The notes beneath the pieces were generated by a model that was not told where the DNA came from, searched no databases, and was given only the letters and a program-made list of their open reading frames with translations. From positions 1-24,945 of IMG/VR virus record IMGVR_UViG_3300012525_002487: a stretch of DNA of 24,945 nt; one strand, written 5' to 3'. Source of the stretch: a virus. The position numbers and the translations under genes were made by a program. Shown here piece after piece: positions 2,230 to 22,063 of the stretch (position 1 is its first letter; each line of letters begins with the position of its first letter).

Positions 2230-2237
2230 TGCATATA

Positions 2238-2709: not shown

Positions 2710-2721
2710 TATAGGTATATA

Positions 2722-2785: not shown

Positions 2786-2805
2786 TTGCCGGAGATAGAT
2801 AATCT

Positions 2806-3822: not shown

Positions 3823-3836
3823 GTTTAAGGTAAGAT

Positions 3837-4670
3837 ATGGCAAACGTATTTGGTGGTAATAGCTCCTCTGGAAATTGTGGCCCTAGCGGTGGTGGTATAA
3901 TTCAATCACCTAGACAACAGGTTGTTCCGTCTAGAGTTGTAGAGTCTAATCCAAATGTTTTTAGAGGCGGTACACAATCACCCGGCTCAATTAACCTAAG
4001 AGATTTTTACACAAAAAGAGAAGTTGATAAGTATTTAGATACAAAAGCAGACACTTCTAGTGTATATCAAAAAAATGCTTTATACACAAAACTAGAAATT
4101 GATCAGCTTATTGATGATCTAAACTTATCTGCATATGCATCTACTACTTATGTAAATAGTAGCGTATCTTCTCAATTTAGCCAAATCAATACGACCCTAG
4201 CAGAGAACTACTATCAAAAATCTGTTCTATATACAAAAACAGACGTAGATGGGTTGATTGCTGCGTTATCTATTACCGGAGACTACGTTTCTAAGTCGCC
4301 AACAAGTCTCACAGACGTAACAATTGATCCCGACTCTAATAACTTACCAGTAAGTTTAATTGTTCGTTCTTCAAACAACTCTGCAACTACAGAAGTTCAG
4401 AGATGGGAGAATTCTGCCACAGATTACCTCGGTGCAATTTACGCCGATGGTAAGGCAAAATTTGTAAATAAAGTATTTATAGGTGAAAATGTAAATACAG
4501 GAGAGGTTGCTCTTAATGTCAATAAGAAACGCATTGGCGACGTTGCCGATCCTGTAAATGAGTTTGATGCTGTAAATAAGCTCTACATGGAAACGTTTAT
4601 CACTGAGACAATTGATAATGTTCTCCAAGAATCCGATGAAAATTACTTAGTTGACGCTTTAGAATACTAA
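3837..4670 (+). CDS. Fibre-shaft protein with coiled YTK-x-(E/D)-(V/I)-D repeats
   Basis: The 277-aa product begins with a Gly/Ser-rich disordered region of about 25 residues. It then shows repeated heptad-like units: YTKREVDKYLDTKADTSSVY at about 58-77, YTKLEIDQLIDDL near 83-95, and YTKTDVDGLIAAL near 132-144. Such units are typical of trimeric fibre shafts. The last 60 residues include IGDVADPVNEFDAVNKLYME, which matches a common fibre signature where a D-P-x-x-x-x-D-A-x-N-K-x-Y segment precedes the terminus. AAGG in the TTTAAGGTAAGAT leader gives a usable Shine-Dalgarno for ATG 3837. The gene stops one base before the next ATG, so the two are likely translated together. Likely a short fibre, whisker or fibre connector; which one cannot be decided here. 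Confidence 0.65.
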   Translation: MANVFGGNSSSGNCGPSGGGIIQSPRQQVVPSRVVESNPNVFRGGTQSPGSINLRDFYTKREVDKYLDTKADTSSVYQKNALYTKLEIDQLIDDLNLSAYASTTYVNSSVSSQFSQINTTLAENYYQKSVLYTKTDVDGLIAALSITGDYVSKSPTSLTDVTIDPDSNNLPVSLIVRSSNNSATTEVQRWENSATDYLGAIYADGKAKFVNKVFIGENVNTGEVALNVNKKRIGDVADPVNEFDAVNKLYMETFITETIDNVLQESDENYLVDALEY

Positions 4671-4671
4671 A

Positions 4672-6684: not shown

Positions 6685-6698
6685 CCTCCCGTTCTTTT

Positions 6699-6718
6699 GT
6701 TTAAAGTCTTAAATAGAC
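6699..6718 (+). promoter_or_regulatory. Putative intergenic element, GTTTAAAGT followed by a GTCT/AGAC inverted repeat
   Basis: GTTTAAAGT at 6699-6707 runs into GTCTTAAATAGAC at 6706-6718, whose ends GTCT and AGAC are inverted copies. It lies in the 67-base gap before the 78-aa gene, with 53 bases from the motif start to the ATG. CTTAAATA inside it resembles the T4 late-promoter box TATAAATA. The same core precedes four other genes in the window. Confidence 0.35.
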
Positions 6719-6751
6719 AATATACAATTTGGCACAGGGGACAGTGAACCT

Positions 6752-6988
6752 ATGGCAACAAATAAGCATTTTCACGTCAGGCATGGCTTGACTGCGGGTA
6801 CTGGAGTAGATAGCAGCGGAACTCCAACCAGAGAGGTAATTACAAACACTGGTCAGTTAGTTGATGTCGGGGATCTTACAGCATTAACTACGAGCGTTAA
6901 GACAAATGTAGTCGCTGCAATTAACGACTTAAATAGCGGCAACGCAACTGTGGACGATGTCATTGCCTTGGCAATTGCACTAGGATAA
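6752..6988 (+). CDS. Small fibre-associated structural protein
   Basis: The 78-aa product has an N-terminus (MATNKHFHVRHGLTAGTGV) like the anchor of marine phage fibres, and a C-terminal helix-forming part (TTSVKTNVVAAINDLNSG) resembling the K-T-x-x-V-x-A-I-N-x-L segment common at the ends of small phage fibre or baseplate proteins. It is the first gene after a putative promoter element, with a GGGGA stretch upstream as a possible Shine-Dalgarno. It is followed 15 bases later by another small structural gene and then by the 1077-aa fibre, so it may connect or assemble that fibre. Function is inferred from context and sequence pattern only. Confidence 0.6.
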   Translation: MATNKHFHVRHGLTAGTGVDSSGTPTREVITNTGQLVDVGDLTALTTSVKTNVVAAINDLNSGNATVDDVIALAIALG

Positions 6989-7003
6989 GGAAAACAAACT
7001 GTC

Positions 7004-7384
7004 ATGGCAAATACCTTCAAATCATATTCAAAATCATCCGTTGGTACCTCAACTGAAACGGCATATCAAGTTGAACTGGGCGGCGCTTCAGGAAAAACAA
7101 CAATTGTTATTGGCATTTCATTATCAAACATTGCCACCACACCGATTAACGTAGACGTGCAGATTGACCGCCCTGCAACAGGAACAACTGCGGCTCCTTC
7201 AGATGATGTTTACTTGGCAAAAAATATCCCAATTCCGTCTGGCTCGACGTTGGAGATTATGGCCGGGCAGAAACTTATCATGGAATATAACGGCTCGGCG
7301 GGGGCGGGTGATAAGATCACTGTGACCTCAGACACAGTCGACTCTCTCGATGTAATTGTAAACGCTCTAGAAATCACCTCATAA
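7004..7384 (+). CDS. Small beta-sandwich virion protein
   Basis: The 126-aa product has a pattern I recognise from marine phage virion proteins: TTIVIGISLSNIATTPINVD, then YLAKNIPIPSGSTLEIMAGQ, then KITVTSDTVDSLDVIVNALE at the end. Alternating hydrophobic residues suggest a small beta-sandwich without catalytic residues. An AAGGA sequence about 12 bases upstream is a fair Shine-Dalgarno for ATG 7004. It sits 15 bases after the 78-aa gene and 18 bases before the large fibre, inside one apparent transcription unit. A fibre-base, decoration or baseplate component is most likely; the exact position in the virion is unknown. Confidence 0.6.
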   Translation: MANTFKSYSKSSVGTSTETAYQVELGGASGKTTIVIGISLSNIATTPINVDVQIDRPATGTTAAPSDDVYLAKNIPIPSGSTLEIMAGQKLIMEYNGSAGAGDKITVTSDTVDSLDVIVNALEITS

Positions 7385-7402
7385 GAAGGAGTTATATTAA
7401 CC

Positions 7403-10400
7403 ATGGCATATATCGGCAACGACGTAGACGCAATCTTTATCCCCGAGAGTATAAACACCTCGACTAGTCTGAGGATTAATGGTGGTGGATTGACCCAGAC
7501 AGGTGGTGATGTAAACTTTGATAGCGGAACGTTATTTATCGACGAGGACACAAACAGAGTTGGTATTGGCACCATTGACCCACAATACACACTTGACTTC
7601 GGAAAAACATCAGCATCCACCATTCGTCTTATAAGTGAACACAACGGCACTGCAATCCGTGTTGGTGCTGGTGGTGGCGACAATAATGTAACACTATTGA
7701 GAGTTGATGGTGCGGGTGTACTAGATGGTGTTGGAGAATCCGATTCTGCTGCATATGGATTCTCCATTAAGTATATGGGGGGTCGTCTTGGGAATAATAA
7801 CTCGTTGTCTATTTTTTCTGATAATCAAGAAGGGTCTCAAATTGAGGCAGTAACAATATCCCAAGATGGAAGTGTCGGCATCGGGACTGATAATCCACAA
7901 GAAAAATTAGAAATAGAAGAAGGAAATATAAGATTATCTACAGATATTGGAGGAACAGTTCCAAAATATGCTATAAACTGGACTGGCGGTGGTGCTGGTC
8001 AAGTAGCGGTATTTTCCGCAAATACTTCCACTGGCGAAGTAAGAATGGGTGCAGATAATAGTTCTGGAACGTATTTTACTACGTTATATTCTAATGGTAA
8101 TGAAAGACTTCGTATAGATTCAAGTGGATGGGTTGGAATTGGAACGAATGCTCCATTACACACTGATAGTGCCTTAGATATTGAAGGATCAATACCAGTT
8201 CTTAGAATTAGTTCTACTGGAAGTTATGGGGCTTTAACGTTTGCTGATGCTGGCGATGATCATTCAGTTGGTGGTATCGTTTATGATCATACTAATGATT
8301 CTTTAATGCTTTATGGATATAATAATGAAGAAAGACTTCGTATAACTTCTGATGGAGATTTGATACTTAAAACTTCTGGTACAATGCCAGTTGGTAAGTT
8401 TGTTTTTAGGGAAGGATCTGATGATGCTTTTAGTTTTAGAACAACTGGAGCAAATGGAGCATTTGAAATATATGATGAATGGGATGATCAGACAAGATTA
8501 CATATAGATTCAAGTGGCAATGTTGGCATCGGCCTTATAAGTCCAGCGTACAAATTACATGTACTAGGAAAAGCATATCTTGAAGATCTTAATGGGGCTG
8601 TTATAAATAATTCTGGAGCAAATTTTGGTTTTACAGCTTTAACGCTACACAACTCTGGAAGCGCAATAAGTTCTGCCCATAATGCTCAAATACTCTTTGA
8701 TATAAATGGTGGAGCAACTAACGCAACCAGGGCAAAGATAATTGGCGGAAAACAAGATACTGGAACTAGCAGTGGTTATCTTGCATTCCAAACATTAACA
8801 AACGGAGCTTTAACAGAGAAGCTTTTTATAGACTCTAATGGAAATATAAAAATTGATAGTAGTGGTGATGGACAAGATATCCAAATATTACCGCATTCTG
8901 CAAATAGTGGACATGGACAAATTTATTTACGTGGCAATGCATCTGGGGAGTACTCTTCGATAAAATTAAATCACTACGGTTACGCAGATTATGTTATCTC
9001 TGCAGGTCAATCTGGACTTGGATTGTTTAGTATTACTAAAACTGCTGGTGGTTCTGATGGTATTATAATTAATAGCACTGGCAATGTCGGCATCGGCACC
9101 ACAGATCCTCAAAATAAATTACATGTATATACAACTTCTGGAAATAATGGAATAGTAGTAGAAAATGCATCTACAGCAAATATTGCTTTTACTGGTGCTA
9201 AAAATGGAGAAGCCACGGTTCAGATAGGTCAATTTGGATCTAGCGCAACCGGAACTACTTTTGGATTAACTAATTCTAATCTATCGGTCATATATACAAC
9301 ATCATACAGTACAACACATCCATCTGCTCTGGCTATAGGTACTGTTAGTAATATTCCCGTGGTTATTGCCGCAAATAATACCGAAAGAATAAGAATTACT
9401 GGAACTGGCAATGTCGGCATCGGCACTGATAATCCAGCACAAAAACTAGATGTAGGAGGAAATGTGCGTTTAGGAACGCTTTCCGCAGCTGGTGATTTTA
9501 CGGATAGTGGTTCAACTGGTACTCGTCATTTAACCATAGGAGCAGATAATGGAGGGGATGCTTTATTAGTAACTCATGCTTCTGGATATGGCGTTGGTTA
9601 TTTTGGATACGAGGCAGGCGGAGATAGATTGATCATTGCTTGTGATAGTGGTGGAGGAAATAATAAAATAGATTTTTCTGTCAACGCAGGCACAACAGCA
9701 AACGGAACAACTGATAACATCAACGGTATAGCTCCTGCTATGCGAATTGCTGCCTCTGGCAATGTCGGCATCGGCACCGATAATGCAAGTCAAAAATTAC
9801 AAATATATGGATCAGATAGTCAATATATTTCTATAATATCAAGTGACTCTGGAAATACTGGCGTACTTTTTGGAGATTCAGACAGAGTTGATTCTGGTTA
9901 TATACTGTATGGTAACTCATCCGATACACTCATTTTAGGAACAGGCGGAAATATTTCTGGATCTGGAACTGGAAAACTAACAATATTAAGCGATGGTAAT
10001 GTTGGTATTGGCACCGATAACCCCCCAGTAAAATTAGATGTTGATGGTTCACTACAACTAAGGGCATCAGGTAATTATACAACATATGCTACAAGAATTT
10101 ACTCTCGTCTTGATTCTACGCATTGCTCCGTAATTGAATCATATTTGAATAACAGCACAGCGTTTGAAATGATGGGATCTTACGCTGATGCTGGTGGTTC
10201 TAATCCTAGAGTTGTCATATCAGCAGGTGGGCAAAAAGTCGGCATTGGAGTTATTAACCCAAGTTATAACCTTGAAGTAAACGGGTCATTCGCTGCAACA
10301 ACTAAATCGTTTATTATTGACCACCCAACCAAAGAGGGATACAAACTCCGCCATGGCTCCCTTGAAGGCCCAGAAAATGGCGTTTATGTACGAGGCCGGA

Positions 10401-10636
10401 GCACCGAGACAATTATTTCCCTTCCTGATTACTGGGTGGCCTTGGTCGACCCTGACTCAATCACCGTGTCCCTAACCCCCATAGGCCCAAGTGGGGCGCC
10501 GAGGGTTGAAAGAATAGAGAATAATAAAGTATATATCTTCTCTGAAGACTCTCGCCCTCTTGATTATTTTTACATGGTCAATGCAGAGCGCGTAGACGTT
10601 GACCCTCTCGAAATAGAAATCCCACCCACCAACTGA
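7403..10636 (+). CDS. Long tail fibre with nine VGIGT-type repeats and a conserved tip
   Basis: The 1077-aa product is a long trimeric-type fibre. The N-terminus MAYIGN resembles that of the 967-aa fibre at 17580. Nine copies of a VGIG(T) motif, often within GNVGIGTDNPxxKL, occur at about residues 53, 158, 242, 373, 561, 670, 787, 866 and 946. Such units punctuate beta-stranded shafts of phage fibres. The last 110 residues, starting FIIDHPTKEGYKLRHGSLEG and continuing PENGVYVRGRSTETIISLPD, form a conserved tip that in marine phages follows such shafts. A full GAAGGAG Shine-Dalgarno at 7385-7391 strongly supports ATG 7403. The core (about 7890-10270) is AT-rich, whereas the tip-coding end is GC-richer, which suggests modular exchange. 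Repeated DNA around the VGIGT codons is shared with the 967-aa fibre gene. Confidence 0.85.
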   Translation: MAYIGNDVDAIFIPESINTSTSLRINGGGLTQTGGDVNFDSGTLFIDEDTNRVGIGTIDPQYTLDFGKTSASTIRLISEHNGTAIRVGAGGGDNNVTLLRVDGAGVLDGVGESDSAAYGFSIKYMGGRLGNNNSLSIFSDNQEGSQIEAVTISQDGSVGIGTDNPQEKLEIEEGNIRLSTDIGGTVPKYAINWTGGGAGQVAVFSANTSTGEVRMGADNSSGTYFTTLYSNGNERLRIDSSGWVGIGTNAPLHTDSALDIEGSIPVLRISSTGSYGALTFADAGDDHSVGGIVYDHTNDSLMLYGYNNEERLRITSDGDLILKTSGTMPVGKFVFREGSDDAFSFRTTGANGAFEIYDEWDDQTRLHIDSSGNVGIGLISPAYKLHVLGKAYLEDLNGAVINNSGANFGFTALTLHNSGSAISSAHNAQILFDINGGATNATRAKIIGGKQDTGTSSGYLAFQTLTNGALTEKLFIDSNGNIKIDSSGDGQDIQILPHSANSGHGQIYLRGNASGEYSSIKLNHYGYADYVISAGQSGLGLFSITKTAGGSDGIIINSTGNVGIGTTDPQNKLHVYTTSGNNGIVVENASTANIAFTGAKNGEATVQIGQFGSSATGTTFGLTNSNLSVIYTTSYSTTHPSALAIGTVSNIPVVIAANNTERIRITGTGNVGIGTDNPAQKLDVGGNVRLGTLSAAGDFTDSGSTGTRHLTIGADNGGDALLVTHASGYGVGYFGYEAGGDRLIIACDSGGGNNKIDFSVNAGTTANGTTDNINGIAPAMRIAASGNVGIGTDNASQKLQIYGSDSQYISIISSDSGNTGVLFGDSDRVDSGYILYGNSSDTLILGTGGNISGSGTGKLTILSDGNVGIGTDNPPVKLDVDGSLQLRASGNYTTYATRIYSRLDSTHCSVIESYLNNSTAFEMMGSYADAGGSNPRVVISAGGQKVGIGVINPSYNLEVNGSFAATTKSFIIDHPTKEGYKLRHGSLEGPENGVYVRGRSTETIISLPDYWVALVDPDSITVSLTPIGPSGAPRVERIENNKVYIFSEDSRPLDYFYMVNAERVDVDPLEIEIPPTN
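8516..9777 (+). repeat. Near-identical DNA repeats coding for GNVGIGT
   Basis: A 20-base segment beginning GGCAATGTCGGC and ending ATCGGCAC is identical at 9080-9099, 9407-9426 and 9758-9777, with a close variant at 8516-8535. The same 20 bases recur at 19716-19735 in a second fibre gene, with a one-mismatch copy at 20040-20059. Neighbouring sequence has diverged, and other VGIGT units use different codons, so DNA identity here exceeds what protein conservation needs. Confidence 0.85.
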
Positions 10637-10642
10637 GTTACT

Positions 10643-12934
10643 ATGTCACAACACATCGGTCCTAGAACAATCAGCGCTCAAGGCGGCAGTATTAAGCGAG
10701 TAGGGAACTACAGAATCCATACATTCCCCTCTGAATTGGTGACTGATGGATTGGTATTGAGTCTTGATGCTGGTGATCCAAGATCATATCCAAGTAGTGG
10801 AACAACTTGGACTGATTTGAGTGGTAATGGGAATAATGGAACGTTAGTTAACGGACCTACGTATAGTAATGCCGATGGAGGAAGTTTAGTTTTTGATGGT
10901 ACTGATGATGCTATAACTGTTGCAACAGGACTACAAAGTCAGTTGCAATCTGGTGCGACATTGGAAATGTGGATTAAAAAAGATTCTAATAAGAGTGCGG
11001 AATTTTTAAAAGTTGGAGATAGTAATGTTGATGAGCCAGGAGCACAATCTATTTGGTATGCAAGTGGAATTTTAAGATTTCATAGTTTTATAAACGGTGC
11101 ATCTAGAAGACATGTTTTATTGCAGCATACCATTTCTCTTGGCGATGGAAATTGGAGACATATAGTTTGTACATTTAATGGTAACATTGTAGATGGTGGA
11201 ACTGCTTCTCTCTATATCAATGGATCGTTAATAACATCTACTACAAATGAAAGTACTAATTCATCTTTTGGAGCTCCTGGATTTTCTCATACTGGTAGTG
11301 GTTACGCCCACGATGGATCAGCTTCTGTATTAAGAGTATACAACCGCGCCTTATCCGCCGCAGAAGTTGCACAGAACTACGACTCCCTGAGAGTACGCTA
11401 TGGCACATATACCAATACCTTCACGCCTATTTGTGCCGGTGGGGAAGGGAAGGTAGAGGTGCTGTGTGTTGCTGGGGGAGGATCAGCTGGGGGAGCATAT
11501 TATCATGGAGGCGGCGGTGGTGCTGGCGGATTAATTTACAACTCTGCATTTTCTGTTGGTTCAAGTACTGGAGTATCTGTATCTGTAGGTAGGGGTGGTT
11601 ACACTCCATTTAGTGACTCCACCACACACACAAAAGGAGAAAATGGAGTAAATTCTGCATTTGGAACTTTAACCTCAGTTGGCGGTGGCGGTGGCGGAGG
11701 ATTCGCAGGGGCTGGAGAAGGCGGAAAAAACGGAGGCTCTGGCGGCGGTGCAGGAAATAGTTCTGGAAGTGCTGGAGTTGGGGGGTCTGGAACTTCTCTT
11801 CAGGGTAATGATGGCGGAGATACATCTTCTAATACTGGTGGAAATAAAGTTGGTGGCGGAGGTGGTGGTGCTGGCGGACCTGGAGAATTTGGTGGTATAG
11901 CAACTGGAGGTAATGGAGGAAGTGGTCTTGCATATTCTATATCTGGAACTTCGCAGTATTATGCAGGGGGAGGCGGAGGAAGTACAGAAGTAAGTACGCA
12001 ATTTACTAAAGGTGGTTCTGGAATTGGCGGAGATGGTAATTGGAGCGATGGAACAAATGGTATTCCAAATACAGGAAGCGGCGGTGGTGCTGGAGAAAGA
12101 ATATCTCCAGCAATTTCTGGAAACGGCGCTAATGGAACTGTAATCGTCAGATATCCTGCAACCGACTACAACGTCGAGGTACTCGTAGTTGGTGGAGGAG
12201 GATCTGGGGGATCTGGTAGTTTATATGCATATTCTGGCGGCGGCGGAGGTGCTGGAGGATTTATTTATAGATCCTCTATAATAGTATCTTCTGGTGAAAA
12301 CATAAAGATTTCTGTTGGTAAAGGCGGAGCGGGGTTAAGTAGTGCTTCCTATGATCCATCTCCATTTGGTACTACTGGTAATTCAGGATCTAATTCAAGA
12401 TTCGGTAATTTAATTGCCATTGGAGGCGGCGGTGGCGGTGGCGGCCTAACCTATGACGGTATCTCTGGTGGATCAGGTGGTGGTGGCGGTGGTCGTAATT
12501 CTACCGGTGGATCTGGAATTGCTGGTCAAGGTTTTGCTGGTGGAAGTAGTAGTGAACATGGAGATACCACAACTTATGGTGCTGGTGGCGGTGGTGCTTC
12601 AAGTGCCGGTGGAGATGCTAGTAATACAACTACAGCAGCTGGTGGAGAAGGAAAATCAAACTCTATTACTGGTTCATCAGTAACTTATTCTGTTGGTGGA
12701 GCTGGTGGACACAATGCTGGAACTGGAAGCGGTACTCCTGTCACCAACAGTGGATCTGGGTCACGAGGCGGCGTTGGCAACGGAGGTGGTAGTCAATCTG
12801 GAGCTGATGGCATTGTAGTTGTTGCATATAAAGGCCCGCAGAGAGGAATTGGTGGTACAATAGACACTACATCAAGACCCGGCTACACCCTCCATATCTT
12901 CACAACCGCCGGGTCTGATACATTCATACCATGA
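10643..12934 (+). CDS. LamG plus double glycine-rich domain adhesin
   Basis: The 763-aa product starts with IGPRTISAQGGSIKRVGNYR, then IHTFPSE, the usual lead into a phage glycine-rich domain. A LamG/concanavalin-like domain follows at about residues 32-245, with LSLDAGDPRSYPSSGTTWTD, LSGNGNNGTL and LRVYNRALSAAEVAQNYDSL. Two glycine-rich domains follow (about 265-505 and 510-735), each starting with a VEVL(C/V)VxGGG strand and full of GGGGG runs. These resemble polyglycine folds of adhesins such as T2 gp38, as a comparison only. A short IHIF-type strand (GYTLHIFTTAGSDTF) closes the protein. LamG and polyglycine modules commonly bind surface glycans or proteins, so a receptor-binding role is likely. 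The start follows the previous stop by six bases; the end overlaps the next gene by ATGA. Confidence 0.82.
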   Translation: MSQHIGPRTISAQGGSIKRVGNYRIHTFPSELVTDGLVLSLDAGDPRSYPSSGTTWTDLSGNGNNGTLVNGPTYSNADGGSLVFDGTDDAITVATGLQSQLQSGATLEMWIKKDSNKSAEFLKVGDSNVDEPGAQSIWYASGILRFHSFINGASRRHVLLQHTISLGDGNWRHIVCTFNGNIVDGGTASLYINGSLITSTTNESTNSSFGAPGFSHTGSGYAHDGSASVLRVYNRALSAAEVAQNYDSLRVRYGTYTNTFTPICAGGEGKVEVLCVAGGGSAGGAYYHGGGGGAGGLIYNSAFSVGSSTGVSVSVGRGGYTPFSDSTTHTKGENGVNSAFGTLTSVGGGGGGGFAGAGEGGKNGGSGGGAGNSSGSAGVGGSGTSLQGNDGGDTSSNTGGNKVGGGGGGAGGPGEFGGIATGGNGGSGLAYSISGTSQYYAGGGGGSTEVSTQFTKGGSGIGGDGNWSDGTNGIPNTGSGGGAGERISPAISGNGANGTVIVRYPATDYNVEVLVVGGGGSGGSGSLYAYSGGGGGAGGFIYRSSIIVSSGENIKISVGKGGAGLSSASYDPSPFGTTGNSGSNSRFGNLIAIGGGGGGGGLTYDGISGGSGGGGGGRNSTGGSGIAGQGFAGGSSSEHGDTTTYGAGGGGASSAGGDASNTTTAAGGEGKSNSITGSSVTYSVGGAGGHNAGTGSGTPVTNSGSGSRGGVGNGGGSQSGADGIVVVAYKGPQRGIGGTIDTTSRPGYTLHIFTTAGSDTFIP

Positions 12935-13140
12935 TCGAAGAATACTTAGGATTATTCGGAGTTGATATAGCCATTAAGAAGCTCCGCCCAGGTGCTGAGT
13001 TTGCGCTCTACAATACAACAATTACGCATTGGGAGTGTCCTAATGGCTCCACCCCTCCCTCTTGGGAGGAGATTGCAGAGCAAATAGACGCAGATCGGGC
13101 AGAGGCAGAGAGCCTCGCCCTCTCTGATTCCAGCTCATAA
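12931..13140 (+). CDS. XkdW-like small tail protein
   Basis: The 69-aa protein has the pattern AIKKLRPGAEFALYNTTITH, then WECPNGSTPPSWEEIAEQID. This resembles the XkdW family and similar small phage tail proteins: a L-R-P-x-A-x-F segment, a Trp, then a Pro-x-x-E-E-I helix. Its ATG overlaps the stop of the glycine-rich adhesin in an ATGA arrangement, so its translation is probably coupled to that adhesin. A helper or assembly role for the adhesin is plausible from position, but the biochemical role of XkdW-like proteins is not something I can state. The 56-base gap after it contains a putative promoter element. Confidence 0.65.
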   Translation: MIEEYLGLFGVDIAIKKLRPGAEFALYNTTITHWECPNGSTPPSWEEIAEQIDADRAEAESLALSDSSS

Positions 13141-13157
13141 GAAGAAAGAAATTCGTG

Positions 13158-13177
13158 GTTTAAAGTCTTTAAAAGAC
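13158..13177 (+). promoter_or_regulatory. Putative intergenic element, GTTTAAAGT with near-palindrome
   Basis: GTTTAAAGT at 13158-13166 runs into GTCTTTAAAAGAC at 13165-13177, a nearly perfect palindrome. It lies in the 56-base gap before the 155-aa gene and begins exactly 39 bases before the ATG, the same distance as the copy at 16862. No Shine-Dalgarno follows it (the leader is CTCTCCCCCTCCC). Confidence 0.4.
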
Positions 13178-13196
13178 ACAGCACTCTCCCCCTCCC

Positions 13197-13664
13197 ATGG
13201 CCCTATCCGACAAGGACATTGTCATAACACCGAGTAAAGGCTCGGCCGTAGCCTCCCCAAAGATCGTCTTTAGCGCAGCGACTTCCACGTCCCCTGCGCA
13301 GGACATCACTCTCGAAATCTCTCCAAATGGCGGCGCTTCCGACGGCTCCACTCTCACCTTTACTGGAGAAGCCAATGGCACCCTGCTCTCTATCTCCGAT
13401 CTTAGCGGCGGGAGTCTCTTCAGCGTTAGTGGTGAGTCGGGTCTCCCTCTCCTCGATGTCAATGAGACGGGCAATATCAACCTTGGGTTTGCAACAGGGG
13501 CGCTAACACTCCCCTCTGGGACAACCGCAGAACGCCCTACCTCCCCTCAAGCCGGAACATTACGCTGGAATAGTGAGAATGGCGCAATGGAGGCCTATGA
13601 TGGGACAGAATGGGTAGAGCTTATTTCTGACTATGCCCCTAGCGGCTCTACAATTTTAGGTTGA
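13197..13664 (+). CDS. Small fibre-like structural protein
   Basis: The 155-aa product is rich in Ser, Thr, Gly and Ala with alternating strands. Its C-terminal third has TLPSGTTAERPTSPQAGTLR, then WNSENGAMEAYDGTEWVEL, a widespread fibre or tail-spike segment in which the W-N...Y-D-G...W pattern forms a small beta-structure. No membrane or signal segment is seen. The codons are GC-richer than those of the following gene. A promoter-like element lies just upstream, but no Shine-Dalgarno precedes ATG 13197. It ends 14 bases before the giant adhesin, suggesting it anchors or completes that adhesin, which is inference. Confidence 0.65.
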   Translation: MALSDKDIVITPSKGSAVASPKIVFSAATSTSPAQDITLEISPNGGASDGSTLTFTGEANGTLLSISDLSGGSLFSVSGESGLPLLDVNETGNINLGFATGALTLPSGTTAERPTSPQAGTLRWNSENGAMEAYDGTEWVELISDYAPSGSTILG

Positions 13665-13678
13665 GGAGATAATTTATT

Positions 13679-16600
13679 ATGGCAGGCGAACACTTAAAGA
13701 GAACTCATACTTCAACGGGTAGTAAGAAAAAATTTACATATTCTTTTTGGTTTAAAAGTAATATTACTTTTACATCAAACTCATATTTTTTTGGTCTTGG
13801 CGGCGATGGATCAAGTTATGATGACTCAAGATTATATGTAAGTGACGGATCGTCCCGTGCCCTTTCATACGTTGCCTCTGATGTTGGCATTTCTGATGTA
13901 CTTACAGATGACGCAATTCGGGATTATGGTAGTTGGTATCACTTTATGGTTGTAGTTGATACTACTATTGATCATGCCACAAACAGAGTGAAATTATACA
14001 TTAATGGTGTAAGAAAAGATGTAAGTTATACTACTACTGCCGCCCAAAATGCTAATATTTCTCACAACACTGCTGGCGAAATATTGCTACTAGGATCTTA
14101 TAATGGTTCTAGCACCTTTACTGCCGAAGGAAATTACTCGGATGTTTTTAATGTAGATGGTCAGGCATTAACTCCCGATGTGTTTGGTTTCTATAAGGAC
14201 GGAAACGGTTATATCTCTGCCGGGACAACTCAGTCTACCGATTTCAGGCCGGGGCAATGGGTCCCTCACTCCCCTCGCAGAATTAAGTCCGAGATCAACC
14301 GCCGAGGCGGATTTGGAGTTAATGGGTTTTATCTGCCTATGAATAGCTCCAATAATTTTGGCGCGGATTTTCATTGCGAGCCGGATACAATCTTAAAGCT
14401 CAAAAGCTCCCTCCCACAGCCCAAAGCCGAGATCGATGGCGTTGGAGATTATACAGGGGCGCTCCGCGAAGACCCACTCAAGGACTATTTGGTGCTGGCG
14501 ATTCCTGGGGTGAGCGGTGGATTGCAGAATGGTTTTGGAGATTACTCTGCTGCGATTAGAGGCAGTGGAACTCCAAAAACATTAACTTTAAATGGTGGAA
14601 TTGTTACTTCCTCAACTCACTCCTATTATGGAAGTGCTGGATATTTTAATAATGGTGGGGCTAGTGGATCTCAATTTTTAAATTGCACAGACTCTGCTTT
14701 TGCGTTAGGAACTTCTAATTTTACATTAGAAGCTTGGATATATCCGACATCAATATATAATTTTTGGACTTTACTTTCAACAAGACCAAGTGACGGACCA
14801 TTCAGTGATGCATATCATATAGGAATAGATGGAAATGGAGCAATAGGACTTTATAGTGATCAATATGATGTAAAAAGTGCAAATGGAATAATCATCTCTA
14901 ATCAATGGAGTCATATTGCAGCATGTAGAATAGGGAACACATTAACTTTGTATGTTAATGGTGTTGCAGTTGCAGTTAATACAAATTATACAAAGAATTT
15001 AACAAGAAATGCTTTGACTATAGGAAGATTGCAGAATTTTGGTACTAATTTAGAATCTGCAACGGGTTACATACAAGATCTTCGCATCTACAAAGGTGTA
15101 GCAAAATACACGGGTGGTTTTGATGCTCCGAAACCTTATACACCAGTAGGTATTGGAACTTGGAGAGCAGTTCCTGATTGCACTGCGAATAACTTTGCTA
15201 CTTTGAATGCTGTTGATAATAACGGTGGAGTTATTACTAATGGAAATTTAACATACACAGATGATGGTAGTAGCAATTGGAATAATTCAAGAGCAACTAT
15301 TGGTGTTTCAAGTGGAAAATATTATTGGGAAATGAGAGCAGATGCAATAAGTTCTGTCATGTGTGCTTCTATTGCTGGACCATCTGGAAATGACTCTACT
15401 GATGGAGCAAGTTTGGGATTTCTCCCAGGACAATCTGAAGGTGCTGGTGTTACATATTATAATAATGGTTATCTATATCATGCTGATAACCAAGGTGGTG
15501 GATCTGCTTGGGGTGCATCATATGTGAATGGTGATATTATAGGTATTGCTCTTGATCTGGATGATGCTGGTGGCAAGGTTTGGTTTTCTAGGAATGGTTC
15601 TTGGCAAGTATCAGGCAACCCATCAACTGGAGCAAACCCTGCGAGAAGTGACTTAAAAACTTATGCAAATACTTGGTTCCCAATATCAGGAACATATTAT
15701 ATTAATACAGTACAATCATTTAACTTCGGTCAAAACCCAACATTCTCTGGAAACACCACAGCAGGAACCTACACGGACAGCAACGGCAAAGGACTCTTCA
15801 AGTATGAACCTCCAAGTGGTTTCCTAGCATTATGTGAGGACAACCTCCCAGCTCCAACAATTAAAGATCCTGGTGAGCACTTTAAGACTGTGCTTTATAG
15901 TGGTGACAATAGTGCTGGTAGAAGAATTAATGTCGGTTTCCAACCAGATTTTATTTGGTTTAAATCAAGAAATGCAGCAACTTCTCCTGTTCTTGTTGAT
16001 AGTGTAAGAGGATTTGGGCATCTTAATTCTGATGGAACCAATACAGAATCAACTTCAGGAACATTATATGTTGGTGGATATGCAGACAATGGATTTGATC
16101 TGAATGATGGATCGCTTAGTGGTGGCAATACAACTGGAAGAGATTATGTGGCATGGTGTTGGAAAGCAGGTGGGGAGGCAGTGACAAACACTGATGGTAG
16201 TATCACATCACAGGTGAGTGCCAATCAGGATGCTGGGTTTAGTATTGCTACATATACAGCAACTGGAAGCACTGGAAGTATAGGACATGGACTTGGAAAA
16301 ACACCTGCCTTTGTGATTACAAAACACAGAAATCTTGACACTCATTGGAGAATTTGGCATAAAGGATTGAGTGGATATAATTATACTTTATTCTTCACTA
16401 CGGGAGCAGAGCAAGTTCAACCAGCATATAGTGCTTTACCAACAGATAGTGTTATTAATCTTTCTGGCGATTTAACTGGTTCCTATAATTTCGTAACCTA
16501 TTGTTGGGCAGAAGTAGAAGGTTTCAGTAAGTTTGGAAGTTATGTGGGTAATGCAAGTGCTGATGGTCCATTTGTCTATTGTGGATTTAAACCTGCTTGG

Positions 16601-16711
16601 TTGATGGTGAAGAGAGTTACTACTGGCGCTAATGAACCTTGGTCAATTTATGATAGTTCTAGAGGATCAACCAATCCAAATCCTAAAGGTTTATATGCAA
16701 ATATACTTTGA
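13679..16711 (+). CDS. Large LamG/LamG/SPRY adhesin, C-terminus lost to a frameshift
   Basis: The 1010-aa frame carries, in order: a LamG-like domain (about 15-180, starting KRTHTSTGSKKKFTYSFWFK); a linker whose coding DNA is GC-rich (about 160-285); a second LamG domain (about 310-490, with FTLEAWIYPTS and GYIQDLRIYKGVAKYTGGF); a SPRY-like domain (about 530-690, with SSGKYYWEMRADAISS, and VWFSRNGSW); and a DUF7483-like C-terminal domain from about 730 (PDFIWFKSRN, RDYVAWCWKAGG, GHGLGKTPAFVITKHR, CGFKPAWLMVKR). GAGGAG at 13663-13668 is a strong Shine-Dalgarno for ATG 13679. The frame stops at TGA 16709-16711 right after GLYANIL. The expected end of this domain continues in another frame to 16860, so the gene carries an apparent indel. 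It is probably a glycan-binding adhesin of the tail. Confidence 0.82.
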   Translation: MAGEHLKRTHTSTGSKKKFTYSFWFKSNITFTSNSYFFGLGGDGSSYDDSRLYVSDGSSRALSYVASDVGISDVLTDDAIRDYGSWYHFMVVVDTTIDHATNRVKLYINGVRKDVSYTTTAAQNANISHNTAGEILLLGSYNGSSTFTAEGNYSDVFNVDGQALTPDVFGFYKDGNGYISAGTTQSTDFRPGQWVPHSPRRIKSEINRRGGFGVNGFYLPMNSSNNFGADFHCEPDTILKLKSSLPQPKAEIDGVGDYTGALREDPLKDYLVLAIPGVSGGLQNGFGDYSAAIRGSGTPKTLTLNGGIVTSSTHSYYGSAGYFNNGGASGSQFLNCTDSAFALGTSNFTLEAWIYPTSIYNFWTLLSTRPSDGPFSDAYHIGIDGNGAIGLYSDQYDVKSANGIIISNQWSHIAACRIGNTLTLYVNGVAVAVNTNYTKNLTRNALTIGRLQNFGTNLESATGYIQDLRIYKGVAKYTGGFDAPKPYTPVGIGTWRAVPDCTANNFATLNAVDNNGGVITNGNLTYTDDGSSNWNNSRATIGVSSGKYYWEMRADAISSVMCASIAGPSGNDSTDGASLGFLPGQSEGAGVTYYNNGYLYHADNQGGGSAWGASYVNGDIIGIALDLDDAGGKVWFSRNGSWQVSGNPSTGANPARSDLKTYANTWFPISGTYYINTVQSFNFGQNPTFSGNTTAGTYTDSNGKGLFKYEPPSGFLALCEDNLPAPTIKDPGEHFKTVLYSGDNSAGRRINVGFQPDFIWFKSRNAATSPVLVDSVRGFGHLNSDGTNTESTSGTLYVGGYADNGFDLNDGSLSGGNTTGRDYVAWCWKAGGEAVTNTDGSITSQVSANQDAGFSIATYTATGSTGSIGHGLGKTPAFVITKHRNLDTHWRIWHKGLSGYNYTLFFTTGAEQVQPAYSALPTDSVINLSGDLTGSYNFVTYCWAEVEGFSKFGSYVGNASADGPFVYCGFKPAWLMVKRVTTGANEPWSIYDSSRGSTNPNPKGLYANIL

Positions 16712-16900: not shown

Positions 16901-17551
16901 ATGTCTGCTCCTACGCATACTTATACCTGCCCCTCCATCACCACAATCAAGTCACTCGGAGAAGGACTCGATAATGTAGTTACTTCTGCTACAATTTATC
17001 TCACCACAGCCACCACCGCTACCTACACCGAAACTGTCACTGAAACGCAATGGCCAGTGCAAACCGGGACTACTGAAGAGACCTATGAAGAGGTGCAATA
17101 CACCGCTCCTCTTGCCCCACTACCCGATACTCTCACCGAAGTCACTGAGGGCACTGAAGTATTCCGCGAGGAGATCCCACGTACCAAAATTGGCGATGTA
17201 GTAACACTCACTCGCGAGGTCCCTACCTACGATATCCCAGAGCCCATCACAACCTCAACAGACGAAGAACGCACTCGTGAATTCTCTTCCTTTGCCCACT
17301 TTACTGTAGAGTTTGATACAACAAGCCTTGATGCGGAGTCTTTTGTGGCCTACGCCGGACTCACCGAAGAGACCGTGGTTGGTTGGGCAAGGACCCTAGT
17401 CCCAGACACATTCACCGAGGCCGAGACCAAAAACACCCAGAGAGTAGAGACAGAAAGGGATATGTTCCTCAACCCTGAAAAATACGCCAAGGACTCTCCC
17501 GTACCCCCATGGAAAATAGCACAAGATCAGCAGGGCGAGGAAGAGGTTTAA
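16901..17551 (+). CDS. DUF7936-like phage protein
   Basis: The 216-aa product is strikingly rich in Thr and Glu, with an N-terminus like YTCPSITTIKSLGEGLDNVV followed by strand-forming Thr repeats. Its last third has FVAYAGLTEETVVGWARTLV and a helix with repeated charged residues. This matches small uncharacterised proteins common in cyanophage fibre clusters, in which a valine-rich strand, then Y-x-x-L-x-E-x-x-V-x-x-W, then a polar helix occur. The family is usually placed as DUF7936, but I recall this by pattern only. It stands between two putative promoter elements, so it may be its own transcription unit, and its stop codon lies inside the next GTTTAAAGT copy. The role is unknown; a virion or chaperone role near fibres is likely. 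Confidence 0.6.
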   Translation: MSAPTHTYTCPSITTIKSLGEGLDNVVTSATIYLTTATTATYTETVTETQWPVQTGTTEETYEEVQYTAPLAPLPDTLTEVTEGTEVFREEIPRTKIGDVVTLTREVPTYDIPEPITTSTDEERTREFSSFAHFTVEFDTTSLDAESFVAYAGLTEETVVGWARTLVPDTFTEAETKNTQRVETERDMFLNPEKYAKDSPVPPWKIAQDQQGEEEV

Positions 17552-17570
17552 AGTAAACTATATATTATAG
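17546..17570 (+). promoter_or_regulatory. Putative intergenic element, GTTTAAAGT with two small palindromes
   Basis: GTTTAAAGT at 17546-17554 contains the stop codon of the preceding gene and forms GTTTA-AAG-TAAAC (17546-17558). CTATA-TAT-TATAG follows at 17558-17570, giving two adjacent 5-base-pair inverted repeats. The element starts 34 bases before ATG 17580. There is no T-run, so a promoter or operator is more likely than a terminator. Confidence 0.4.
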
Positions 17571-17579
17571 ACGTACGAC

Positions 17580-20483
17580 ATGGCATATATTGGGCGCAAT
17601 CCAGCCATAGGAACACAAAAGGTCCTAGATAGTCTTGAATCACAGTTCAACGGCTCCCTTACCACCTTCGACCTACGCTACGGCGGAAACCCCATCTACC
17701 CCACCCTAAGCTCCTCGCTCATAGTCTCCGTCGGCGGCGTGCTCCAGGAGCCTGGCGAGGCCTACTATGTCTCTTCTGACACCATCGTATTCTCCCAGGC
17801 CCCGGCTACTGGGTTAGATTGCTGGATATTACTCTATAGCGAGTATGGCGCAGCAGCGGGCGGGAGTAGTAGCGGCGGTGCAGTGTCAGTCGCAACGGGC
17901 GAGCCAATGGGCCACGAAGACCGTACCGACTCCGCCATCTCATTCGACAACGCCAGCCGCACCTTTACCATCGCCCCTGCGAGTGGGATATCGGAGTTTG
18001 TGGTCTGGACGAAGGGCACTAAGCGAACCTACTCCACAGCTCAAACAGTACAGATCGGCACCGCCACTGGGCTCTATTACATCTACTTCGATGCGTTTGG
18101 CGTGTTGCAATATCGCACAACGTACTTCGACTGGGACGACGACACCCCAACCGCCTATGTGTATTGGAACGCCACCTCATCAACCGCAGTGTTTGTGGCG
18201 GACGAGAGGCACGGTATTGTGCTCGATTGGCAAACCCATGAGTATTTGCATAGGACTCGGGGTGCGGTAATTGCGAGCGGGTTTTCCATCTCCAACTACA
18301 CGACCACAGGCGACGGAAGCGCAAATGCTGATGCGCAGTTCGATCTTGCCAATGGTACGTTCTTTGACGAAGACCTCGAAGTAAATATTACTCATAGTGC
18401 CACGCCGAGCGCCGGAACGTTCACCCAGGTGCTGACAGGTAATGCCGAGATCCCCGTGTACTATATGAGCGGGAGCGAGGGCGATTGGGTAAGAGACACT
18501 GCGACAGAATTTGCTTGTAAGCAATCCGGCACCACCCTCCAATACAACTCATTGAGCGGGAGCACTTGGTCCACCACGGCGGCGAACGATAACCGCTACG
18601 TAGTGAGCTGGGTGGTAGCGACCAATGAGATTAGCGCTCCTGTTATTGTGGTTCTTGGCCAAGATCAATACAGCTCAATTGGCGCGGCTGAGGAGGCAGT
18701 GTGGGGAGACCTAACCCTCACCAACTTCCCGATATTTGAGTTTAGGCCGTTGTGGAAGGTGATCTTCCGCACCAACTCTACATTCACCAATACCCCCAAC
18801 GCCTATATTGCCAACGTCCTCGATTTGAGAGAGTTCAGCTCAACGGGCATTGCGGGGACAATTGTCTCCGACCACGGGTTGCTTAGTGGCTTGGCAGATG
18901 ACGACCATGCCCAGTACCTCAATACAACGGTCGATAGGACCGGAGTCACCGCCAACATCACCACCACGGGAAATATCAGTGCGGCGAACCTAATCGCCTC
19001 TGGGCAGCTCCAAGGCCCGGCGAACTTTGTCATTGATCCAGCGGCCGTGGGCGACGATACCGGCACCGTGGAGATCAAAGGTAACCTAACCGTCCAGGGC
19101 ACCACCACTACGGTTAACTCCACAACCACAACTGTTAATCAGATCAAGTTAGGTGATAATGATAAGGCGCTGTTCGGCGACGGGGATGATCTACAGATAT
19201 ATCATAGCGGATCGAATAGTTACATAGACGATGTTGGTACAGGAAATCTTATTTTAGGCGCTGCAAATTTCCAGTTGATGAATGTTGCACATACCGAAAA
19301 TTATTTTACTGCAACAAATAATGGTTCTGTACAATTATATTATGACGCAAATTTAAAACTTGAGACAACTTCAACTGGGATTAACGTACAAGGTGATATA
19401 AAACTTAGTGCAAATAATTACTTAGCTCTATCTGAAAAGCTATATGGATATAGCGGATCATTTTCCTCAATTATGGTGGGGAACCCAAGCGATGTAAGAG
19501 GAAATGTCGCATTAGCTGTAGACACTAGTACGATCACCGGTGGTAACTTTAATGGCTACGGGCAGATAATATTTACAAGGCGAGGAGGATTAGCTCCTAA
19601 TAATGCCGGAAATAATTTTATTGGGGTTTACAGTTATAACTCTTCTGATTCATTGATCTTAGGACCAATTACTACTAGTGGTTATACTAGTGGCCCATTA
19701 ACATTAACCTCATCTGGCAATGTCGGCATCGGCACCACAAACCCACTAAAAAAATTACATACTTTAAGCGGAACAAGTGGATACTCCATAACAAATTCAG
19801 AAGATAACTATATTGTTGCTAGATTTGAAGCCGAAGACTCAAGAGTTCAAATTGCCTCTCAAGATACAGGTGATAATGGTTCTTCTCTAATTTTATCAAA
19901 TAGCGATAAACACTGGATAGTAGATGCTAAGGCAGCAGATAAAGATAATCGGTTTGATATCGGATACTATGACTCTAGTGTTTCAGACACTACAGATTGG
20001 AACCAACATAAATCAACGTATTTCACAATAAAAACAACTGGGAATGTCGGCATCGGCACTGATAACCCTTCACAAAAACTTGTAGTATATAATGGAAATA
20101 TAAAATTACAGGGTGAACCAACTAATGTTGCAAATTTAATATTTACTAGAACTGACACTTCTTGGTCTCTTAATAATGAAACAGAATTTAGGATTTATAG
20201 CGGTTCGGGAACAACAGATTCTCCATCAACTCTAAGATTAAATATTAATCACTCTACTGGGCATATCACTCCAGGTGCAGATGCAACCCAAGACTTTGGT
20301 TCTCCGACTAAACGCTGGGCGAATATCTACTCTGCTGACCTCCAGTTATCCAATGAAGGCTCCGCCAACGACGTCGATGGGACATGGGGCGCCTACACCA
20401 TCCAAGAAGGCGAAGAGGAGTTGTTCCTCATCAACCGCCGGAGTGGGAAGAAGTTTAAGTTTGTATTAGAAGAGGTTAAGTAA
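17580..20483 (+). CDS. Tail fibre with VGIGT repeats and VDGTWGAYTIQEGEE tip
   Basis: The 967-aa product starts MAYIGRNPAIGTQ, then has a beta-rich fibre base (LIVSVGGVLQEPGEAYYVSS) to about residue 95. A long beta-stranded part follows to about 430. The motif HGLLSGLADDDHAQYL (about 432-448) is a well-known fibre segment. TVQGTTTTVNSTTTTVNQIK (about 500-520) leads into DDLQIYHSGSNSYIDDVGTG (about 535-555). Two GNVGIGT repeats follow near 714 and 822. The tip (about 896-967) carries ITPGADATQDFGSPTKRWAN, then VDGTWGAYTIQEGEEELFLI, then NRRSGKKFKF. The 5' part is GC-rich and the part at about 19190-20275 AT-rich. The stop is followed three bases later by the next gene. Likely a receptor-binding tail fibre. 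Confidence 0.82.
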   Translation: MAYIGRNPAIGTQKVLDSLESQFNGSLTTFDLRYGGNPIYPTLSSSLIVSVGGVLQEPGEAYYVSSDTIVFSQAPATGLDCWILLYSEYGAAAGGSSSGGAVSVATGEPMGHEDRTDSAISFDNASRTFTIAPASGISEFVVWTKGTKRTYSTAQTVQIGTATGLYYIYFDAFGVLQYRTTYFDWDDDTPTAYVYWNATSSTAVFVADERHGIVLDWQTHEYLHRTRGAVIASGFSISNYTTTGDGSANADAQFDLANGTFFDEDLEVNITHSATPSAGTFTQVLTGNAEIPVYYMSGSEGDWVRDTATEFACKQSGTTLQYNSLSGSTWSTTAANDNRYVVSWVVATNEISAPVIVVLGQDQYSSIGAAEEAVWGDLTLTNFPIFEFRPLWKVIFRTNSTFTNTPNAYIANVLDLREFSSTGIAGTIVSDHGLLSGLADDDHAQYLNTTVDRTGVTANITTTGNISAANLIASGQLQGPANFVIDPAAVGDDTGTVEIKGNLTVQGTTTTVNSTTTTVNQIKLGDNDKALFGDGDDLQIYHSGSNSYIDDVGTGNLILGAANFQLMNVAHTENYFTATNNGSVQLYYDANLKLETTSTGINVQGDIKLSANNYLALSEKLYGYSGSFSSIMVGNPSDVRGNVALAVDTSTITGGNFNGYGQIIFTRRGGLAPNNAGNNFIGVYSYNSSDSLILGPITTSGYTSGPLTLTSSGNVGIGTTNPLKKLHTLSGTSGYSITNSEDNYIVARFEAEDSRVQIASQDTGDNGSSLILSNSDKHWIVDAKAADKDNRFDIGYYDSSVSDTTDWNQHKSTYFTIKTTGNVGIGTDNPSQKLVVYNGNIKLQGEPTNVANLIFTRTDTSWSLNNETEFRIYSGSGTTDSPSTLRLNINHSTGHITPGADATQDFGSPTKRWANIYSADLQLSNEGSANDVDGTWGAYTIQEGEEELFLINRRSGKKFKFVLEEVK
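19190..20275 (+). other. AT-rich core inside the 967-aa fibre gene
   Basis: Composition changes sharply at the DDLQIYHSG codons. As examples counted by hand, 17641-17700 has 35 G or C in 60, whereas 19321-19380 has 19 in 60. Codons change from GCC/ACC/ATC types to AAT/GGA/TTA types and return to the GC-rich style near 20280, where the conserved tip begins. This marks a separately inherited or separately evolving module. Confidence 0.6.
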
Positions 20484-20486
20484 CGC

Positions 20487-21743
20487 ATGGCAATCTACTC
20501 CGACTCAGGGTTTATCACAGCGCGGGATACCCCGCTTATCCGCCCCACCCTCGATCTTAATTTTGCAAGAGAGAAAAGGCTGGATAGTAGGGTGTTGTTT
20601 ACTAGGGATAGTAGTGCAACATACACTGATGAGGATGGCATCATCCGCACTGTTCCAAATAATGTGCCACGCTTCGACCACGACCCGACCACTGGTGAGA
20701 GTCTTGGATTATTGATTGAGGAGAGTAGGACTAATTCTCAGTTAAATTCTCAACCTCAATCTGGATCATTTACTGGTGGTAGTGCCACTATAACTTACAA
20801 TACCGCCACAGCACCAAATGGAGAAACAGAGGCTTGTAGAATTGCTCGTAATGGAACAAATACTAGTATCTCATATTGGAGAACAACCGGAAGTATAACA
20901 TTTGATTCCAACTCTATGGTTCTATCTTGTTGGGCGAAAGGACAAAATGGAAATAATTATTTTGTATGGTCTTTTCAGAATCTTGGTGGAGCAATTGTAA
21001 GAGCAGGATTTCTTTTGACTGGCGACGGAGAAACTCAAATTATTACTAATGGTAATGGCGGTCATACATTACAAATAGAAAAATACCCAGATGGTTGGTA
21101 TAGATGTATTATTATCGGAAATACTCAGTCTTCTGGAACAACCACTCAGTTTTTATATACGGCATCTGCTTATAATGAGGATAGTAGTGCTATTGGAGGA
21201 TCAACTTTAGTCTGGGGATTTCAACTAGAAGCAGGTGCTTTCCCAACCTCCTACATCCCCACCTCCGGCTCTACTGTCACCCGCGCCGCTGACCTTGCCT
21301 CCATTTCTGGCACAAACTTTGCAGAATGGTACAACCCCACCGAAGGTACTGCGTTTGTTGATGTTACAATGCCAAATTCCAAAGGTGCTTATGGAATACC
21401 TTCATATGCTTTTAAATTAACATCCGATTCAAATCGATATTATGGATTTAGCCGAGATAGTGTAGGACCGTATCATTATATAAATACTTCAGATGCAAAT
21501 ACTTATACATTTGCAAATTTGGCATCAGAATATAAATCAATTCTTACAATAAAAGAGGATGATATTAATTCGTACGTTAATGGAAATCAAAATGTAAGCT
21601 TGAGTAGCGTAACTTTATTTACTCCAGATATATTGTATTTAGGATCTACAACTTCAGAAAATGTATTAAACTCGCATATTAAGCAATTTAAATATTACAA
21701 TAGAAGGCTTTCTAACACCCAGCTCCAGGCTTTAACATCATGA
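20487..21743 (+). CDS. Adhesin with LDLNFA/PRFDHDP head and carbohydrate-binding-like core
   Basis: The 418-aa product has a highly recognisable phage head segment at residues 22-83: LDLNFAREKRLDSRVLFTRD, SSATYTDEDGIIR, PRFDHDPTTGESLGLLIEES, then RTN. A CBM-like beta-sandwich follows to about residue 250, ending in the common GFQLEAGAFPTSYIPTSGST then VTRAADLASI. A LamG-like C-terminal part (about 280-418) ends IKQFKYYNRRLSNTQLQAL. These modules are known from tail spikes and adhesins of marine phages and prophages, where they likely bind surface glycans. Composition alternates: the head, and the part around 21241-21300 (39 G or C in 60 by hand count), are GC-rich, while 21541-21600 has 16 in 60. 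The stop overlaps the next start (ATGA). Confidence 0.8.
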   Translation: MAIYSDSGFITARDTPLIRPTLDLNFAREKRLDSRVLFTRDSSATYTDEDGIIRTVPNNVPRFDHDPTTGESLGLLIEESRTNSQLNSQPQSGSFTGGSATITYNTATAPNGETEACRIARNGTNTSISYWRTTGSITFDSNSMVLSCWAKGQNGNNYFVWSFQNLGGAIVRAGFLLTGDGETQIITNGNGGHTLQIEKYPDGWYRCIIIGNTQSSGTTTQFLYTASAYNEDSSAIGGSTLVWGFQLEAGAFPTSYIPTSGSTVTRAADLASISGTNFAEWYNPTEGTAFVDVTMPNSKGAYGIPSYAFKLTSDSNRYYGFSRDSVGPYHYINTSDANTYTFANLASEYKSILTIKEDDINSYVNGNQNVSLSSVTLFTPDILYLGSTTSENVLNSHIKQFKYYNRRLSNTQLQALTS

Positions 21744-22063
21744 CCACCGCCGCCACCTACCTAAAATTCCCTTCTCAGGCCACGTTTGAGGAGCTTATGG
21801 CCGAGGCCGGGCTCACCCACGTCGCCGAGGACGGAACAATATTGCTTTCCCTATCATCCCATGAGCGGACAATTGATGTCATTGGCACCATCTACGACCC
21901 ACCCGGCGAGTGGGGCGCCGATGAGACAACCGGGGAGCCTATTGAGCTCTCCCCACCTGTCCCGCTTGCGGGCTACCATGTCAACATTGCAGGAAACGTC
22001 CCTGATAAGTTGAAAGAGTATATAATCGAGGCGCCCAACACCCCTCACAGAGTATTTTTCTAA
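21740..22063 (+). CDS. Small adhesin-partner protein (unknown family)
   Basis: The 107-aa product has VIGTIYDPPGEWGADETTGE, then LAGYHVNIAGNVPDKLKEYI, and ends NTPHRVFF. The G-T-I-Y-x-P-x-G motif, the G-Y-H-V-N strand and the terminal P-x-R-V-F are shared by small proteins next to tail fibres in many phages. ATG 21740 overlaps the preceding stop (ATGA), so its translation is probably coupled to the 418-aa adhesin. It may be a fibre-assembly helper or a minor tail component; nothing shows which. The gene keeps GC-rich codons, like the conserved head of its neighbour. Confidence 0.65.
   Translation: MTTAATYLKFPSQATFEELMAEAGLTHVAEDGTILLSLSSHERTIDVIGTIYDPPGEWGADETTGEPIELSPPVPLAGYHVNIAGNVPDKLKEYIIEAPNTPHRVFF

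Follow-up and report, generated by a model that had tools for sequence, protein, structure and literature searches.

The 967-aa tail-fibre gene of an S-TIM5-like cyanophage is most probably a modular gene built by recombination, in which the stretch from the DDLQIYHSG motif to the C-terminal tip has been replaced as a cassette; we put the probability of this reading at roughly 78%. The gene lies in a viral DNA stretch of 24,945 nt, referred to here as the window. A composition mosaic and a module architecture were found in the gene itself, and interior exchange at like joints was found in neighbouring genes and in relatives. Cassette exchange between conserved flanks is well supported, and the import of this particular middle, with its donor, we infer. 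The features discussed are collected in Table 1.

Table 1. Features of the fibre region, in window coordinates
Feature	Coordinates	Strand	Remarks
Neighbouring fibre gene with VGIGT repeats	7403..10636	+	Interior exchange between alleles, window versus G002
Cassette replaced between the window and G001/G002	8118..9757	+	VGIGT motif at each border
GNVGIGT DNA, right border of the ORF 7403 cassette	9758..9777	+	
967-aa tail-fibre gene, mosaic	17580..20483	+	ORF; PHROG tail-fibre and virion-structural matches; ortholog of S-TIM54 UYE97271.1
N-terminal anchor of the S-TIM5 lineage, aa 1-89	17580..17846	+	80% identity to S-TIM54; 75-76% to S-TIM5, S-TIM61 and S-TIM66
Inserted domain, GC-rich, aa 90-428	17847..18863	+	G042, S-TIM54 and G009 have no such domain between the two flanking modules
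Conserved stem, GC-rich, aa 429-535	18864..19184	+	Motifs DDHAQYL and LTVQGTTTTVNS; matches G042 aa 93-139 and S-TIM54
AT-rich middle with two VGIGT repeats, putative exchanged cassette, aa 536-911	19185..20312	+	GC3 of 0.22, with a change point at either end
GNVGIGT DNA, fibre copy 1	19716..19735	+	Exact 20-mer
GNVGIGT DNA, fibre copy 2	20040..20059	+	One base different
Conserved C-terminal tip, aa 892-967	20253..20480	+	About 76 aa; GC switch at +60 nt; 80 viral loci
Next fibre-like gene	20487..21743	+	GC-rich block of the tip extends into its start; homolog also follows the tip gene in G042

The window was assigned to an S-TIM5-like (Aurunvirus-like) cyanophage because its portal (87.3% identity to that of S-TIM54 over 628 aa), its 142-aa gene and its gene order agree. 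The order portal, 142-aa gene, structural genes, 126-aa gene, fibre genes is common to the window and the S-TIM5-like phages, and so is the fibre anchor. The window differs from these phages in the inserted domain, the middle and the C-terminus of the fibre, and in having additional fibre genes that separate the ORF 7403-type gene from the anchor gene. Synechococcus is the host of the Aurunvirus isolates; the window itself is known from a metagenomic contig alone. Two sister contigs, G001 and G002, carry portals 100% identical to that of the window. The mean GC3 of the upstream genes in G002 was 0.36, so that the fibre exceeds the level of its genome in its N-terminal half and falls short of it in the middle. 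Elsewhere in the window, a 338-aa structural protein (2806-3822) aligns with the C-terminal part of an S-TIM54 protein of 2140 aa (L287 4126-10548), and the corresponding gene varies strongly in size within the lineage.

The composition of the fibre gene was analyzed by sliding windows and by change-point fitting. A shift in codon style near 19190 and its return near 20280 had been reported in a preliminary description, and both were borne out: near 19190 sliding GC dropped from about 0.55 to 0.34, to rise again near 20300, and the hand counts given there (35 of 60 G or C at 17641-17700, 19 of 60 at 19321-19380) were exact. The curve was not smooth. GC3 change points fitted best at nt 19185, with a log-likelihood gain of 62.1, and at nt 20313, with one of 20.2; the largest gain among 5000 codon permutations was 11.5. 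The change point at 19185 coincides with the opening codon of DDLQIYHSG, and the one at 20313 lies 60 nt into the conserved tip, which starts at 20253. GC3 was 0.64 for codons 1-535, 0.22 for codons 536-911 and 0.67 for codons 912-967. In an amino-acid-matched comparison of codon choice, the N-terminal part and the tip each differed from the middle (z = 11.9 and z = 6.7, respectively) and not from each other (z = -0.14). Amino-acid composition was ruled out as the cause, since the GC3 contrast persisted after this matching. A two-state model divided the region into a GC-rich block at 16922-19206, an AT-rich block at 19209-20298 and a second GC-rich block at 20301-20724; the first block begins upstream of the fibre gene and the last one runs into the next gene.

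The contrast between ends and interior is not peculiar to the 967-aa fibre gene. In the six ORFs of more than 400 aa located after 7 kb, GC3 of the first and last 40 codons exceeded that of the interior by 0.146 on average, a value reached by 31 of 5000 circular shifts. The ORF at 13679-16711 was an exception, without GC-richer ends, and none of four backbone control ORFs had them. Two small genes between the fibre genes (21740-22063 and 16901-17551) also showed high GC3 (0.64 and 0.50) and adjoin AT-rich neighbours. When fibre ends and core were compared across relatives, the number of loci per module was 1 to 10, nine loci having been dropped and replaced by longer stretches. A uniform AT-richness of fibre interiors was ruled out, the GC-rich relatives G035, G054 and G033 being mostly GC-rich there.

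The N-terminal half turned out not to be the plain conserved flank that had been assumed, its residues 90-428 being absent from the orthologs in G042, S-TIM54 and G009. The S-TIM54 ortholog, annotated as a virion structural protein, matches the window fibre at aa 1-113 and 455-605, and that of G009 at aa 1-140 and 516-605. In G042 the anchor continues straight into the match of window aa 429-475. The anchor itself was present in 4 of 50 lineage records. Relatives of the insert were found at seven loci (32-59% identity), all located in other fibre genes and all with a GC3 of 0.19-0.33; the insert region of the window (aa 96-497) has a GC3 of 0.645, and a GC-rich insert is thus unusual. A Pfam search gave no domain in the anchor, insert, middle or tip.

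These observations bear on an alternative in which no recent exchange occurred here, and slowly evolving ends keep GC-ending codons by selection while fast interiors drift to AT. The backbone genes lend it something: compared with G009, identity in segments of 30 codons correlated with GC3 (rho 0.40, p = 6e-4, n = 70), which was 0.49 at identities of at least 95% and about 0.30 at 30-60%. The fibre ends in the window are likewise GC-richer than the interiors, and the tip averages 0.44 versus 0.22 upstream. However, the range of backbone GC3 is much smaller than 0.22 to 0.64, a site-level test of conservation against GC3 in the portal gene was not significant (z = 1.17), and the insert is unconserved in orthologs yet has a GC3 of about 0.65. 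Gradual drift also cannot give abrupt loss of identity between flanks of 97-99%, as described below, and we regard this explanation as improbable. A further possibility considered was that the composition of repetitive interiors, whatever their origin, is shaped by selection acting on translation speed or on mRNA structure. A study of cyanophage S-TIM4 treats non-optimal codon clusters and folding (PMC6224464), and in G042 the core genes have a GC3 of 0.64-0.70, yet two fibre genes are at 0.23-0.25. The fibre genes of the GC-rich relatives G035 and G033 are nevertheless mostly GC-rich, and such selection is very unlikely to account for the mosaic.

The tip was treated in the preliminary description as a conserved flank. 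It did not prove to be a lineage-specific one, as it occurred in 1 of 50 portal-lineage records and is common to Kyanoviridae and Prochlorococcus podoviruses. It was absent from the complete S-TIM54 record. In the window the stop codon directly follows aa 967, and in 79 of the 80 viral loci retained from 151 confirmed ones the tip forms the protein C-terminus, the remaining locus being cut by a contig end. The complete proteins that bear it range from 187 to 1935 aa, and 45 Synechococcus and Prochlorococcus phage records contain it. Mean GC3 was 0.44 in the tip versus 0.22 upstream at the 78 of 80 loci where it was measurable. The tip matches the C-terminus of the P-SCSP1u fibre gp28 (PDB 8i4m; E = 1e-42), which differs in giving no strong match to the window fibre outside the tip in a sequence search. 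The N-terminus of gp28 is docked on the tail, and the distal part is described as not resolved in the structure (PMC10575957). In a tip tree (69 rows, 76 columns) that was poorly resolved, with 27 of 66 inner branches open, the window paired with G042 (support 90/91), the partner being a long branch. The best match of the anchor was S-TIM54 (80%) and that of the tip S-WAM2 (84%), which belong to different phage groups. An AlphaFold2 monomer model of the tip was poor (mean pLDDT 61.6, pTM 0.26).

The AT-rich middle was also searched for. The part at 19395-20252 had no match among 50,697 phage records, and 19170-20252 gave four candidate stretches in viral_contigs, none of which was confirmed; relatives of the middle were therefore too few to build a tree for comparison with the parts on either side. 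It shares stretches of 45-47 nt at 89-91% identity with the interior of ORF 7403. As no second allele of the fibre gene's own middle was found in these searches, we infer the exchange within 17580-20483 from the neighbouring genes and the relatives.

Sister contigs provided the closest view of such an exchange. Both G001 and G002 are 99.2% identical to the window over positions 1-8158, after which only short repeats align, and the alignment resumes at 9755. From there G002 is 94.5% identical over 1148 nt, and it matches the window at 94.5-96.6% over 9755-10902 and 12809-14638. The interiors of the ORFs at 7403, 10643 and 13679 could not be aligned between the window and G002. At base level, the left border of the ORF 7403 cassette immediately precedes a VGIGT motif, and the right border falls within such a motif; these two were the only VGIGT borders measured at this level, the alignments at the left borders of 10643 and 13679 being out of register and left aside. 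In the stretch compared, which comprised 84 blocks of 99 nt, GC3 was 0.339 in the 32 conserved blocks and 0.203 in the 52 others, a difference reached by 2 of 83 circular shifts. Near-identical phages with unrelated interiors between conserved flanks were thus observed for 7403-10636 and for the tip family, not for 17580-20483.

The DDLQ joint was followed in isolates. Between the orthologous fibres of S-TIM5 and S-TIM54, DNA identity was about 0.9 up to the DDLQ motif and 0.35 just past it. GC3 before and after the motif was 0.49 and 0.30 in S-TIM54, 0.49 and 0.25 in S-TIM5, 0.47 and 0.26 in S-TIM66, and 0.56 and 0.35 in G009. The fitted change point fell at codon 153 in S-TIM54 and at codon 226 in both S-TIM5 and S-TIM66, versus codon 170 for the motif in all three, and at codon 141 versus 147 in G009; exact coincidence of change point and motif was seen only in the window. 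In the comparison of S-TIM5 with S-TIM66, identity is lost near codon 233, close to the change point of both, and returns at 98.5%. These two fibres (L534 and L535; gene at 12001) agree at 98.5% over much of their length; the internal replacement involves about 299 versus 599 nt, and roughly 853 nt of additional sequence forms a second difference. A first search for DDLQ-type motifs gave 109 occurrences in other loci, none with a composition drop of more than 0.25.

These isolates also bear on an assembly artefact, in which the metagenomic contig would join two phages within the gene. The window is a contig fragment, but the reading frame is open across both joints, the adjacency of anchor or stem to DDLQ recurs in the isolates S-TIM54, S-TIM5 and S-TIM66 and in G009, and the tip is followed by a 20487-type gene in G042 as well, leaving such a join scarcely credible.

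Replacements were searched for among 479 non-contained loci, and 45 in-frame cases were obtained. In 15 of the 39 replacement pairs among tip loci, the right border lay at +2 to +69 nt relative to the start of the tip; the count becomes 12 when L014 and L288, which represent one isolate, are counted once. Since all these loci share a conserved tip, any replacement upstream of it would be expected to have its border there. The telling point of these pairs is the unrelated sequence between flanks of up to 97-99% identity. The cleanest pair was ACG-2014e and ACG-2014i: 98.8% identity over 3716 nt, then 297 versus 366 nt of unrelated sequence ending 18 nt into the tip, then 97.6% over 1226 nt. The joints proposed earlier at DDLQIYHSG and at the conserved tip are therefore supported, exchange borders in relatives falling there too. 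As for a cassette swapped between conserved flanks, the exchange was recovered in relatives and in the neighbouring gene, whereas the N-terminal flank proved to be itself a mosaic.

Hypervariable fibre regions can also arise by diversity-generating retroelements. The observed changes are whole-segment replacements with a change of length, not point changes, and none of 7 records, among them the complete ones of S-TIM54 and ACG-2014e, contained a reverse transcriptase (PF00078), with 3 of 14 control genomes positive. Mutation of the middle by such an element was rejected as having almost no chance of being correct, the window itself being a fragment.

In G042, the N-terminal part of the ORF 7403-type protein is joined to the tip and the anchor is joined to the C-terminal part of ORF 7403, versus N- and C-terminal parts of ORF 7403 together and anchor with tip in the window. 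Each C-terminus in G042 is followed by the gene that follows it in the window. A crossover between two paralogous fibre genes would produce such an arrangement. The two genes concerned lie in L296 (G042 55000-71905) as ORFs 5515-6075 and 11649-12755, and their layout also suggests block reordering.

The DNA coding for GNVGIGT was examined at the joints. Six copies are present in the window (at 9080, 9407, 9758, 9995, 19716 and 20040), compared with 0 in 100 shuffles, and four of them are one identical GC-rich 20-mer located in two AT-rich genes. A codon-neutral scan returned at least 120 stretches; the 80 listed were used together with the window. Among the matches listed, GC3 of the motif was 0.446 versus 0.296 in amino-acid-matched flanks (81 contigs), and copies within one contig shared codons at 0.669 versus 0.397 expected (29 contigs). 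Codon identity at matching residues was 0.66 within the motif and 0.44 outside it. The exact 20-mer occurred in 98 viral stretches; among the 80 listed, most lie in GC-richer genes (median flank GC3 0.52), and some lie in genes with a GC3 of 0.10-0.23. The GC3 excess of the motif was slight in the most AT-rich contigs (0.22 where the flanks were below 0.20). It is conceivable, though doubtful, that this DNA is kept alike across repeats, genes and phages beyond protein need as a recombination seed for interior shuffling among phages and among paralogous fibre genes, including the C-terminal tip swap between the window and G042. The likeness of the copies may instead be a result of recombination or duplication. 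The data fit a homologous joint, in which cause and result are not separable.

By recombination of this kind, the lineage-specific anchor and stem and the widely shared C-terminal tip would stay fixed, while the stretch from the DDLQIYHSG motif to the tip would be the cassette that is replaced. The joints would be supplied by short sequences that are conserved or repeated, namely the DDLQ module, the VGIGT repeats and the tip start, and the partners may be co-infecting phages or paralogous fibre genes within one genome. The AT-rich middle would most likely come from a pool of AT-rich fibre interiors on which the neighbouring genes draw as well, and the GC-rich parts may have a different history, being longer resident or derived from a different donor. 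The middle and distal part would set phage binding, and the analogy of other fibres suggests a receptor-facing role of the middle.

Phages are well known to alter their binding by swapping fibre parts at conserved motifs. In the distal tail-fibre locus of T-even phages, short conserved motifs inside the gene are reportedly the sites at which fibre segments are exchanged (Tetart et al.). The cyanophage fibres resemble this locus in within-gene exchange at short conserved motifs, the motifs here being the DDLQ module, the VGIGT repeats and the C-terminal tip; borders at shared motifs were seen at VGIGT (2 of 2 for ORF 7403), at DDLQ and at the tip start (the 15 of 39 pairs above). A T-even-type change of specificity by exchange in the cyanophage fibre is putative. 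A search of the open PMC literature for VGIGT together with tail fiber returned no paper, subscription journals being outside its scope. E. coli phage tailspikes are described as having a conserved anchor and an exchangeable distal part, with DNA motifs proposed as recombination points (PMC10408124). The motifs in that description flank the binding domain, whereas VGIGT in the cyanophage fibres also repeats inside and the tip is a conserved end. In marine metaviromic islands, host-recognition genes and gene parts are reported to vary while the genome is otherwise near identical (PMC3909814); that account relies on read recruitment, whereas borders in the window lineage were placed at base level. 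Recombination has also been suggested inside a large structural fibre-associated gene of cyanophage S-TIM4 (PMC6224464).

Less ordinary are the joints that recur from one phage group to another, the C-termini swapped in G042 and a possible seed at the DNA level. An oddity of composition has thus become a base-level map of cut and rejoin sites in marine phage fibres. Because different cyanophage groups, and named isolates as well, use the same joints, change of host contact is testable from a few sister genomes.
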